NCBI GenBank assembly: GCA_016125185.1
Contig: WGMG01000006.1
Span: 1,550,001 to 1,614,000, forward strand
Reading direction: 5' to 3'
DNA from: Armatimonadota bacterium
Lineage (GTDB): Bacteria > Armatimonadota > Fimbriimonadia > Fimbriimonadales > Fimbriimonadaceae
Length of the DNA: 64,000 nt
Every line of letters begins with the position of its first letter. Position 1 is the first letter of the stretch. Position numbers and translations under genes: made by a program. The notes beneath the pieces are model-generated. The model saw only the letters and a list, made by a program, of their open reading frames with translations, was not told the origin of the DNA and did not search any database. Positions 9,139-39,333 of the stretch are shown in pieces.

Positions 9139-10293
9139 CTACAGCTTGACCCAGGTGCGCTTGTCGTGGCTCTGCTCGACCGCGTCCAGAACACGCTGAT
9201 TCTCGTATCCGTCCACGAAATCGGGTGAAATCGGCTTGCCCTCGACCATGTTGGTCACTGCATCCGCAACCAGGTTCACAAAGGTGTGCTCGTAGCCGAT
9301 AATGTGCCCGACCGGCCAGTAGTGTCCGGCGTAAGGATGGTTGGCTTCGGTGGCCTGGATGAGCCGGAATCCATGCAGGTCGGAAGGGTCATCGTTGTTA
9401 TAGTATTCAAGCTCATTCATCTTTTCGAGATTGAACACCACTGAGCCCTTCGATCCGTTGATTTCAAAGGAGTTTTTGTTCTTGCGTCCAACCGCAAATC
9501 GCGTCGCCTCGAAGGTGCCGAGAGCGCCGTTCTTGAACTTGGCGAGGAACATGGCTGCGTCGTCGACGGTCACATCGCCCATCTTGTCGCTTGCCTTTGC
9601 ACCCAGCTTATCGTCGATCTCGCCCGCCAGTGGTCGCTTCTTAATGAACGTGTGAAGCATGCCGCACACTTCATCGAACTCGCCGATCAGGTGGCGAGCC
9701 AAGTCGATGATGTGCGCGTTGATGTCGCCATGCGTGCCCGAGCCAGCGACTTCCTTTTGCAGTCGCCAAACGAGCGGAAAGTTCGGGTCGGCGATCCAGT
9801 CCTGCAGGTACACGGCCCGGAAATGGTAGATTGTGCCGAGCTTGCCCTCTTCGATCATCTTCTTGACCAGCGCGACCGCTGGTGCCTTGCGGTAGTTGTG
9901 GAAGACGGCGTGGGCGACCTTCGCCTGCAGGACTGCGTCGAGCATGTCCTTAGCCTCCTGCAGCGTGTTACCAATCGGCTTTTCGCACCACACGGCCTTG
10001 CCTGCCTTCGCGGCGGCGATGGCGATCTCCGCGTGGGTGTTGCCGGGCGTCGAAACGTCGATGATATCGATCTCCGGGTTCGCCACGACCTTGCGCCAAT
10101 CGGTTTCGTAGTTCTTCCAGCCGTAGGTTTCGGCCGCCTTGCTCACCGCAGCTTCGTTTCGGCCGCAGATGGTGTGCATGTTGATCTCCGCTGGCAGGTC
10201 GAAGAAGTGGTTGGCTTGGCGGTAGGCGTTGCTGTGCGCCTTCCCCATGAATTGGTATCCGATCAGACCGACATTGAGAACTGGTTTGGACAT
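9139..10293 (-). CDS. Gfo/Idh/MocA-family NAD(P)-dependent oxidoreductase
   Basis: 384 residues from ATG 10293, which has GAGG about 6 bases upstream; an ATG at 10305 is also in frame. The N-terminal Rossmann fold (LNVGLIGYQFMGKAHSNAY) and the conserved EKPIGNTLQEA segment, with the cofactor-near Lys, identify the family. GTHGDINAHIIDLARHL near residue 190 holds the usual active-site Asp/His pair (D.xxH). Members oxidise or epimerise sugars and inositols; the substrate is not evident. It is convergent with the Clp-N gene, one base apart. Confidence 0.9.
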   Translation of the reverse strand: MSKPVLNVGLIGYQFMGKAHSNAYRQANHFFDLPAEINMHTICGRNEAAVSKAAETYGWKNYETDWRKVVANPEIDIIDVSTPGNTHAEIAIAAAKAGKAVWCEKPIGNTLQEAKDMLDAVLQAKVAHAVFHNYRKAPAVALVKKMIEEGKLGTIYHFRAVYLQDWIADPNFPLVWRLQKEVAGSGTHGDINAHIIDLARHLIGEFDEVCGMLHTFIKKRPLAGEIDDKLGAKASDKMGDVTVDDAAMFLAKFKNGALGTFEATRFAVGRKNKNSFEINGSKGSVVFNLEKMNELEYYNNDDPSDLHGFRLIQATEANHPYAGHYWPVGHIIGYEHTFVNLVADAVTNMVEGKPISPDFVDGYENQRVLDAVEQSHDKRTWVKL

Positions 10294-10397
10294 GGCTAGC
10301 CTCATTTTGGGCTCCAGCGAAGTCAATTCGCAACCCTTAGGGGTGTCTTCGCACCCAAGCGAAACAAAAGGACATGCTTACGCATGGATGCTCGATC

Positions 10398-10461
10398 GCT
10401 GCCTCCGTATCAATGAAAGAGTGCAGACGCTCGAACCCTTTGACCGCGATACGGAGGCTAA
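10398..10461. repeat. Left REP-like hairpin element
   Basis: GCCTCCGTATC at 10401-10411 and its exact complement GATACGGAGGC at 10448-10458 form an 11-bp stem around a 36-base loop. The element is an inverted, diverged copy of the one at 11040-11101. Shared parts are the stem, the CGCGG just inside it, and the unequal flanks (TTA on the transposase side, AGC on the outer side). The transposase stop codon (10458-10460) lies inside it. Confidence 0.8.
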
Positions 10462-11027
10462 GAAGACGGGCTCAATAACTCGCGATAGAACTCGAGAGAC
10501 TTCGAAAGGTCGACTGATTCGTCCTCAAGGATGAAGCCATGCCGCACAATGTACAAACTCGACCAAACGTACTCGCCAGCATCCGAAACATAACCAGCCC
10601 GAACAGGATTATCGTTGAGGTAGCGAACCTTTTGCTCCAGGACTTCGTTGGTGAACAGAGGATTGCCTCGAAATGAGCGCTTCCAGAAGTTATTTCGTCC
10701 GAGTCCAGCCTGTTGATGAAGCTGCTCCCTCTCATGTGACGTTAGAAACGCCTTGAGCCTGTCAGAAGCATTCCCTTTGATTTCCCTGACCAAAGCCGAA
10801 ATCGTCTGAGATGCATCTGGACGGACGACCAAGTGAATATGGTGCGGCATCACCACATAGCCGAAGAGAGACGCTCGCCAACGCTTCCAATCCCGCAAGA
10901 GGGAAAGACACATCCGCGTCCGCATCTCTTCCCGAGCAAATAGATGCGCGAAATCGAGGCACGTAGCCGTAACGAAGCACAGTTGTCCCGGCCCCTTCGG
11001 ATTGACGTAGTGCTTATAGTCAGACAC
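10458..11027 (-). CDS. REP-associated tyrosine transposase (RAYT, Y1 / IS200-like)
   Basis: 189 residues, GTG start at 11027. The Y1 fold is shown by FVTATCL near residue 18, the metal-binding HUH-type motif MPHHIHLVV (His63 and His65), and the catalytic tyrosine region KVRYLNDNPVRAGYV (candidate Tyr136). RAYTs are single-copy domesticated relatives of IS200 transposases that cut and join REP hairpins. The gene is complete and free of frameshifts. Its stop lies within the left hairpin, and the right hairpin begins 13 bases before its start, so the unit is compact. Confidence 0.9.
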   Translation of the reverse strand: MSDYKHYVNPKGPGQLCFVTATCLDFAHLFAREEMRTRMCLSLLRDWKRWRASLFGYVVMPHHIHLVVRPDASQTISALVREIKGNASDRLKAFLTSHEREQLHQQAGLGRNNFWKRSFRGNPLFTNEVLEQKVRYLNDNPVRAGYVSDAGEYVWSSLYIVRHGFILEDESVDLSKSLEFYRELLSPSS

Positions 11028-11039
11028 CCAAAAGCAAGT

Positions 11040-11101
11040 TTAGCCTCCGTGTCGCGGCCTGGATTTGCAAAGACCCAAATATCTATTGACACGGAGGCAG
11101 C
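11040..11101. repeat. Right REP-like hairpin element
   Basis: GCCTCCGTGTC (11043-11053) pairs exactly with GACACGGAGGC (11088-11098), with a 34-base loop. Compared with the left copy, one base pair of the stem has changed from A-T to G-C on both strands, so pairing is preserved. It lies 16 bases downstream of the accA stop codon. Confidence 0.8.
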
Positions 11102-11116
11102 ATGGCAAACGGTAGC

Positions 11117-12094
11117 CTAAACCGAGTCGAACTGGCCCATTTTGCGGAACTTCGCGAATCGCGCTTCTCGAACCTGCTCCGGCGTCATCTTTTCCAATTC
11201 AGCCAAGTTCTTGGCAATCGCTTCCTTCACCGTCGCAAATGTCTCAATCGGGTTGCGATGCGCTCCACCGACCGGCTCCGGCAGAATGCCGTCGATGAGT
11301 CCGAATGAGTGCGCGCTTTCCGCCGTCAGCTTCAGCGCTCGCGCCGCTTCGGCGCCGCGCTCCGGCATTCGCCACAAGATCGCCGCGCAGCCTTCAGGCG
11401 GAATGACGCTGTAAACCGAGTATTGAAGCATCAGCACCTTCGACGAGGCCGCAATTCCGATCGCTCCGCCCGAGCCGCCCTCACCGATGACGACCGCGAT
11501 GGTCGGCACCGAAAGCTCGAACATCTTCATGATCGACGCGGCGATTGCTTCCGAAATCCCGCGGGACTCGCTTTCGACGCCTGGGTCAGCGGCGGGCGTA
11601 TCCACAAAGCTGATGACAGGCATGTTGAACCTTTCGGCCATCTCGAACAGACGGATCGCCTTGCGGTAGCCTTCGGGCTTGGCCATTGCGAAATTGCGGA
11701 ACTGGCGTTCCTGAATGTTGCGTCCCTTCTGGTGGCCAACGATCATCACCGGACGGCCGTCAAATGTCGCTGGACCGCCGATGATCGCATTGTCGGCGAA
11801 GCCGTTTCGGTCGCCCTGAAGCTCGACGAAATCTTGGAATAGCGCCGTCACGTAGTCAAGTGTGTAGGGTCGCTTTTCCGCCCGCGCGATCAGCACCTTC
11901 TCCCAGTCGCCCACGTTGGTGTACAGCGCCTTCAGGAACTTGTCGCGCCCGTCTTCCAGCTTCACGATCTGGTCTTCCAGCAACGCCTTGTCCGACTCGT
12001 TCTGCTCCTTCCGCGCTCGCTCTTTGGCGTTCACAATAAACTTTTCGAGCTCGGTCAGCTCGCTTTCCCACTCGTTGTGGTTCTTCGCGCTCAT
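11117..12094 (-). CDS. accA: Acetyl-CoA carboxylase carboxyltransferase subunit alpha
   Basis: 325 residues, the usual length. It carries the crotonase-type core: DFVELQGDR, GHQKGRNIQERQFRNFAMAKPEGYRKA, VDTPAADPGVESESRG and IGEGGSGGAIGI, all standard AccA signatures. With AccD it transfers the carboxyl group from carboxybiotin to acetyl-CoA, the first step of fatty acid synthesis, in the cytoplasm. Its start overlaps the accD stop by 4 bases (12091-12094), giving coupled 1:1 translation. Confidence 0.97.
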   Translation of the reverse strand: MSAKNHNEWESELTELEKFIVNAKERARKEQNESDKALLEDQIVKLEDGRDKFLKALYTNVGDWEKVLIARAEKRPYTLDYVTALFQDFVELQGDRNGFADNAIIGGPATFDGRPVMIVGHQKGRNIQERQFRNFAMAKPEGYRKAIRLFEMAERFNMPVISFVDTPAADPGVESESRGISEAIAASIMKMFELSVPTIAVVIGEGGSGGAIGIAASSKVLMLQYSVYSVIPPEGCAAILWRMPERGAEAARALKLTAESAHSFGLIDGILPEPVGGAHRNPIETFATVKEAIAKNLAELEKMTPEQVREARFAKFRKMGQFDSV

Positions 12095-39062: not shown

Positions 39063-39333
39063 ACAATCCCCGCCTAGTGAACGCAGAAATCTCGAAAATC
39101 GTTGCGACGTCCCGGGTCCTGGAGCCGAAGGGGCCAGCCAATTAGGGCATGGGTGGGTCGCTGAGAGGAATAACTTCGGACCGCTCCCTCAGCATCGAAG
39201 CGCGACACGGTCTCCCGAATCCAGATTCAGAGATGTGGAGGGTAAAAGGGCCGCTAATAGATTTCATAGCATCCACGTGCAGACAAAATGACCCACACAT
39301 GTCACTCACGCAAAGCACAAACCGCGTGAAACT

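Follow-up and report, generated by a model that had tools for sequence, protein, structure and literature searches.

In a window of 64,000 nucleotides from the genome of an Armatimonadota bacterium (family Fimbriimonadaceae), we identified a locus that is very probably a REPtron, in which one gene for a REP-associated tyrosine transposase (RAYT) is accompanied on both sides by cognate, tagless REP hairpins. REP/RAYT systems are already known as a kind; the form found here is distinct in that it does without the usual GTAG tag. In the literature library searched, Armatimonadota combined with RAYT or REP gave nothing relevant, as judged by title.

Gene order and hairpins of the locus

The RAYT gene (10458..11027, minus strand; 189 aa) has intact HIH and YLNDNP motifs and is located between a GFO/IDH/MocA oxidoreductase gene (9139-10326, minus strand) and accA (11117-12094, minus strand). 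The gene-downstream hairpin (10398..10461, plus strand) reads GCT-GCCTCCGTATC-36 nt-GATACGGAGGC-TAA, with the arms of its 11-bp stem at 10401-10411 and 10448-10458. The gene-upstream copy is inverted (11040..11101, minus strand) and reads GCT-GCCTCCGTGTC-34 nt-GACACGGAGGC-TAA, with arms at 11043-11053 and 11088-11098. Complementarity of the arms is 100% in both hairpins, so the two 11-bp stems with 34-36-base loops of the original prediction are perfect, and their inversion around the Y1 transposase gene was verified: the inner ends are 94% complementary over 18 nt and the outer ends 94% over 17 nt. Both hairpins have the flanks (TTA inside, AGC outside) that had been proposed to give the elements polarity, and each runs GCT-stem-loop-stem-TAA from the outside towards the gene. 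The compensated base pair reported between the two copies was located at stem position 9, which is A-T in one hairpin and G-C in the other. Within 1301 nt around RAYT, these two are the only perfect 11-bp stems with a loop of at most 60 nt, compared with a mean of 0.03 such stems in dinucleotide shuffles of the same region (n=300), of which 2/300 reached two. The stop codon of RAYT (TAG, 10458-10460) lies inside the foot of the gene-downstream hairpin. No matching Rfam or PADLOC defence families were found for the locus.

The RAYT protein

The protein matched the NF047646 model (REP-associated tyrosine transposase) with 83 bits, above the cut-off of 80, and the NCBIfam model of IS200/IS605 transposases with 25.6 bits, far below the cut-off of 55. 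Its AlphaFold2 model (pLDDT 88, pTM 0.85) had 4er8, a structure of E. coli TnpA_REP in complex with its REP hairpin, as the best PDB match (E 1.2e-7). In an alignment of 18 relatives, the two histidines of the HUH motif (H63, H65), the tyrosine (Y136), and the NP residues (N140, P141) are invariant. Together with the dispersed related hairpins and the strong covariation at orthologous loci described below, the NF047646 and 4er8 matches bear out the earlier naming of the gene as a RAYT and of the hairpins as REP-like.

Residues W94, Q95, E100, H101, and R104 of E. coli TnpA_REP have been reported to read GTAG (PMC6006769). In a weak pairwise alignment to 4er8, the corresponding residues of the window RAYT are W, K, G, N, and F, and the RAYT clade shows a W..SFR[GS] pattern at this place. 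These replacements would fit a RAYT that works without GTAG, although so weak an alignment is by itself no proof.

The window RAYT is present as a single copy in its genome, and its nearest paralogue is about 50% identical over most of the length. This paralogue is a frameshifted gene (G000:C2:406036-406591, L017; G000 being the genome that contains the window), whose frameshift is possibly an assembly error. It has hairpins of its own, ACCCTCAGC/GCTGAGGGT upstream and CCCTCAGTAGCCG..CGGCTGCTGAGGG downstream, and may be the former partner of a sister family of hairpins dispersed in the same genome (see below).

The same arrangement in related genomes

The window RAYT has relatives in its own genus, family, and order. 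According to the named records retrieved by a contig search with a 5-protein profile, the RAYT clade sits in Armatimonadota, with some records labelled Fimbriimonadaceae. At 29/38 related loci, RAYT stands between two mutually inverted hairpins whose 11-bp stems follow SCCNC-N6 (at most one mismatch). The SCCNC motif was derived from these very loci and the proportion is therefore descriptive, but the controls exclude a by-product of composition: the same test gave 0/3800 in shuffled flanks, 0/17 at accA loci, and 0/16 at more distant Y1 loci. A maximum-likelihood tree places the hairpin-bearing RAYTs in a single supported clade (35 rows, 98/94), and the window RAYT groups with the RAYTs of two genomes, G009, which is of the same genus, and G002, and with the paralogue from its own genome (100/98).

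RAYT is absent from the orthologous gfo-accA interval of G002, which holds other coding sequence, and the orthologous site in G009 has a different neighbour; the unit is thus lineage-specific at the gfo-accA site, by either gain here or loss elsewhere. The ORFs that stand in place of RAYT in G002 (L091, approximately 885-1501) look like one of DUF433 and one of DUF5615 type, toxin-antitoxin-like as judged by eye. A RAYT on a Bacteroidota plasmid and a Calditrichota relative carry other palindromes instead of SCCNC stems. In the Calditrichota locus L172 (1893-2180), GCTTGCAAGC palindromes are repeated in tandem behind a RAYT-like gene, with a spacing of about 49 nt.

Conservation of the stem and freedom of the loop

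The original prediction had held that the stem, and not just its letters, is conserved, and the related loci strengthen this view considerably. When 27 long-loop hairpins are aligned, pairing holds in 94% of the stem cells, compared with 30-53% when the partners are slid by 1-3 columns, and 8/11 stem pairs change on both sides. Compensated differences also occur inside single loci (L033, L039, L051, and L062). Position 9, the site of the difference in the window, is the least paired position of this set. In hairpin families A and B of G009, the same position frequently holds two mismatched pyrimidines (T.C or C.T), which stay mismatched as the letters change. The locus L035, whose "loop 52" in the tree label stems from neighbouring hairpins with 3-nt loops, was not counted as having a long loop.

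Across all hairpins listed, loop lengths range from 2 to 55 nt, the commonest being 3 nt. Two RAYT lineages have near-identical stems with quite unlike loops: CCCACCACAGT has a loop of 45 nt (L039 and L062) and CCCGCCACAGT a loop of 3 nt (L040 and L061), the stems differing by one compensated A-T/G-C pair. The long loops of the window, once contrasted with the short loops of enterobacterial REP sequences, are not a distinguishing feature, since close relatives have 3-nt loops on a like stem. What distinguishes these elements is the missing GTAG tag and the constant 11-bp SCCNC stem, not loop length. GT[AG]G was found at the hairpin foot in 0/80 hairpins, and a T stands directly before the stem in 76/80 and directly after it in 66/80.

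Related hairpins dispersed in the genome and genus

Two covariance models were used for genome-wide searches: R1, built from the long-loop hairpins, whose training includes both hairpins of the window (51.1 bits for 10398..10461 and 43.3 bits for 11040..11101), and R2, built from 19 dispersed hairpins of the sister family and descending from R1 matches. All counts are lower bounds with rough E-values, given that 150 of 848-1478 candidates were scored per genome. R1 gave at least 24 matches (E<=1) in the genome of the window, and 0-2 matches were listed in each of seven other genus members. Most R1 matches away from RAYT belong to the sister family YT-[CAT]CCTCAGTGCC-GAGG...CAGA-GGTTCTGAGG[GT]-T, whose stem (CCCTCAGTGCC) differs from that of the window RAYT's hairpins. 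With R2, the outermost pair of which covaries (C-G/A-T/G-C), at least 35 matches (E<=0.1) were obtained in the same genome, 13 of them new (28-67 bits). Among the matches listed for other genomes, there were 32 in G009, three in G002, one weak match in G012, and none in G001, G005, G007, and G018. Moreover, R2 picks up the RAYT-flanking hairpin at 10398-10461 although it was built without it (28.8 bits, E 3e-6), as well as a hairpin next to the RAYT paralogue with the frameshift (23.7 bits).

Related hairpins are thus found at about 30 intergenic places in the genome of the window. On the basis of simple codon-based gene calls, 34/36 inspected places are intergenic, the exceptions being one pattern-only match and one partial match of 35 nt, and the gaps that hold dispersed hairpins are more often convergent (13) than divergent (3). 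One hairpin whose 11-bp stem is perfect (C1:520816) was dropped, as it lies inside a called gene. All 13 of the G009 matches inspected likewise (13/13) are intergenic. The pattern TGCCTC-N40-70-GAGGCT occurs 42/54 times (forward/reverse) in G009 versus 7/6 for the reversed pattern; these matches comprise several families, including the one that flanks G009's own RAYT, and many of the hairpins are paired as inverted doublets 11-17 nt apart. The expectation that a covariance-model search would reveal more copies was hence borne out for related hairpins, which are dispersed intergenically in both genomes, but not for the exact stem: in its own genome the arm GCCTCCGTRTC occurs at the window RAYT only, plus two unpaired single matches.

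One sister-family hairpin (CCCTCAGCATC..GATGTGGAGGG) lies in the window itself (39183..39245, plus strand), in the gap between two called genes; it scores 24 bits with R1, outside whose training it falls, and is a training member of R2. As read from the sequence, it is surrounded by the left (ATGGGTGGGTC, 39149..39159) and right (GACCCACACAT, 39290..39300) outer arms of a larger repeat. Repeats of this kind, with outer arms GTGGGTGGGTCATTGAGCG / CATTGACCCACCCACG and the hairpin at the centre, were seen at 39149-39300 of the window and at L082, L086, L087, L115, and L157. At L152 (G000:C3:27433-28464), L084, L088, L151, and L159, hairpins adjoin another repeat with nested palindromes (CTCCCCTCCAAAGCTTGGAGGGG...GGCGCGAAGCGACGGGGTGGAT), of which about 900 nt are enclosed by two oppositely oriented hairpins at L152.

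Alternative explanations

The locus might instead be an IS200/IS605-type insertion sequence or a TIRtron, whose hairpins would mark the two ends of a single mobile unit travelling together with its transposase. Both the closeness of the hairpins to the two gene ends and the lack of the unit in the same gfo-accA interval of G002 would suit such an element. However, several near-identical units are not seen, RAYT being single-copy with a paralogue only about 50% identical; there is no tnpB-like neighbour; the IS200/IS605 model scores 25.6 against a cut-off of 55; and the hairpins are inverted copies of each other, with related hairpins scattered without the gene. We regard this explanation as very unlikely, and the RAYT gene itself is not behaving as an active insertion sequence. 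Even less probable, to the point that we give it hardly any weight, is that the hairpins are transcription terminators or stabilisers of mRNA 3' ends that have nothing to do with the enzyme. Their intergenic location and greater frequency at convergent gene ends agree with such a role, but no terminator-like prediction coincides with them, they occur as pairs at both ends of RAYT with polarity towards the gene, and their stem letters vary by RAYT lineage while the flanks of accA have 0/17 such pairs.

Of somewhat greater weight, though still unlikely, is the idea that the dispersed hairpins form the centre of a MITE moved by an unrelated transposase, so that their likeness to the RAYT-flanking hairpins would be superficial. 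In several copies, the hairpin is indeed enclosed by a common outer inverted repeat (GTGGGTGGGTCA...TGACCCACCCAC). Against this idea, other copies have no obvious outer repeat, and R2, trained on dispersed copies only, detects both the RAYT-flanking hairpin (28.8 bits) and one at the RAYT paralogue with the frameshift (23.7 bits).

The interpretation we favour is therefore a REPtron whose REPs are tagless, with some points that weigh against it. The exact window stem has no copy in the genome beyond the RAYT gene, which makes current mobilisation by the window RAYT a supposition; the RAYT on which the dispersed sister family depends may be a different one that is now frameshifted; and many dispersed copies are inside larger inverted-repeat elements that could move by another route.

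Proposed mechanism and significance

By analogy with TnpA_REP of E. coli and Stenotrophomonas (PMC8266576), the window RAYT would bind its hairpin in single-stranded DNA, such as the lagging-strand template. The enzyme would recognise the SCCNC-footed 11-bp stem and probably the unpaired T on each side, largely ignoring the loop; covariation of the stem and freedom of the loop point to recognition chiefly via the stem. The tyrosine would then nick beside the hairpin foot, and strand transfer would copy or move REPs into new intergenic sites. A broader proposal, which we advance only tentatively, is that RAYTs of the Fimbriimonadales type constitute a separate recognition class, which would need no GTAG guide tetranucleotide, depend on an 11-bp SCCNC-foot stem between unpaired Ts, accept any loop, and have its specificity in stem positions 6-11 co-evolving with the enzyme.

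In the literature compared here, how a RAYT chooses and spreads its REPs has been worked out only for GTAG-tagged REPs. The approximately 30 pairings of RAYT and hairpin, in which stems vary with the lineage and loops span 2-55 nt, provide a ready set for working out a second recognition code, and they directly show conservation of the stem, not the loop.

Comparison with known REP/RAYT systems

With the proteobacterial REPtrons of E. coli and Stenotrophomonas (PMC2817692, PMC8266576), the present system has in common a RAYT flanked by inverted palindromes, dispersed intergenic copies and inverted doublets, complementary changes that preserve the palindromes, and lineage-specific stems. Unlike them, hairpins of the window type have no GT[AG]G (0/80) and keep the 11-bp SCCNC stem constant as their loops vary from 2 to 55 nt; according to the weak alignment, Q95, E100, H101, and R104 of E. 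coli TnpA_REP are replaced by K, G, N, and F in the window RAYT. REPs with large, poorly conserved loops are also processed by the TnpA_REP of the Marinomonas REPtron Ma, but that system belongs to group 2, for which the GTAG motif is considered crucial, and its REPs have irregular stems and are 38-42 nt long (PMC8266576). TIRYTs and TIRtrons likewise place a Y1 transposase between inverted repeats, some of them self-complementary, whereas their TIR motif, GGGGWSAS, differs from the motif found here (PMC3733652), and TIRYTs fall for the most part into subclass 2.1, which has an HTH extension at the C-terminus (PMC6006769).

Subclass 2.6 of TnpA_Y1 (group 5 of Bertels; Quentin et al. 2018) has been described with "atypical secondary structures" that lack GT[AG]G (PMC6006769). 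It shares with the RAYT clade the absence of GT[AG]G, copies elsewhere in the genome, a length of about 180-190 aa, and, in most clade members, a Tyr motif of the YIH.NP type. It differs in that it was described mostly from Bacteroidetes, with structures given without detail in the text, and its motifs NH[LIV]H, WQ, and YIH[QN]NP correspond to HHIH, WK, and YLNDNP in the window RAYT; many clade members fit them in part. Compared by description, the RAYT clade thus appears to resemble subclass 2.6 in length and Tyr motif.
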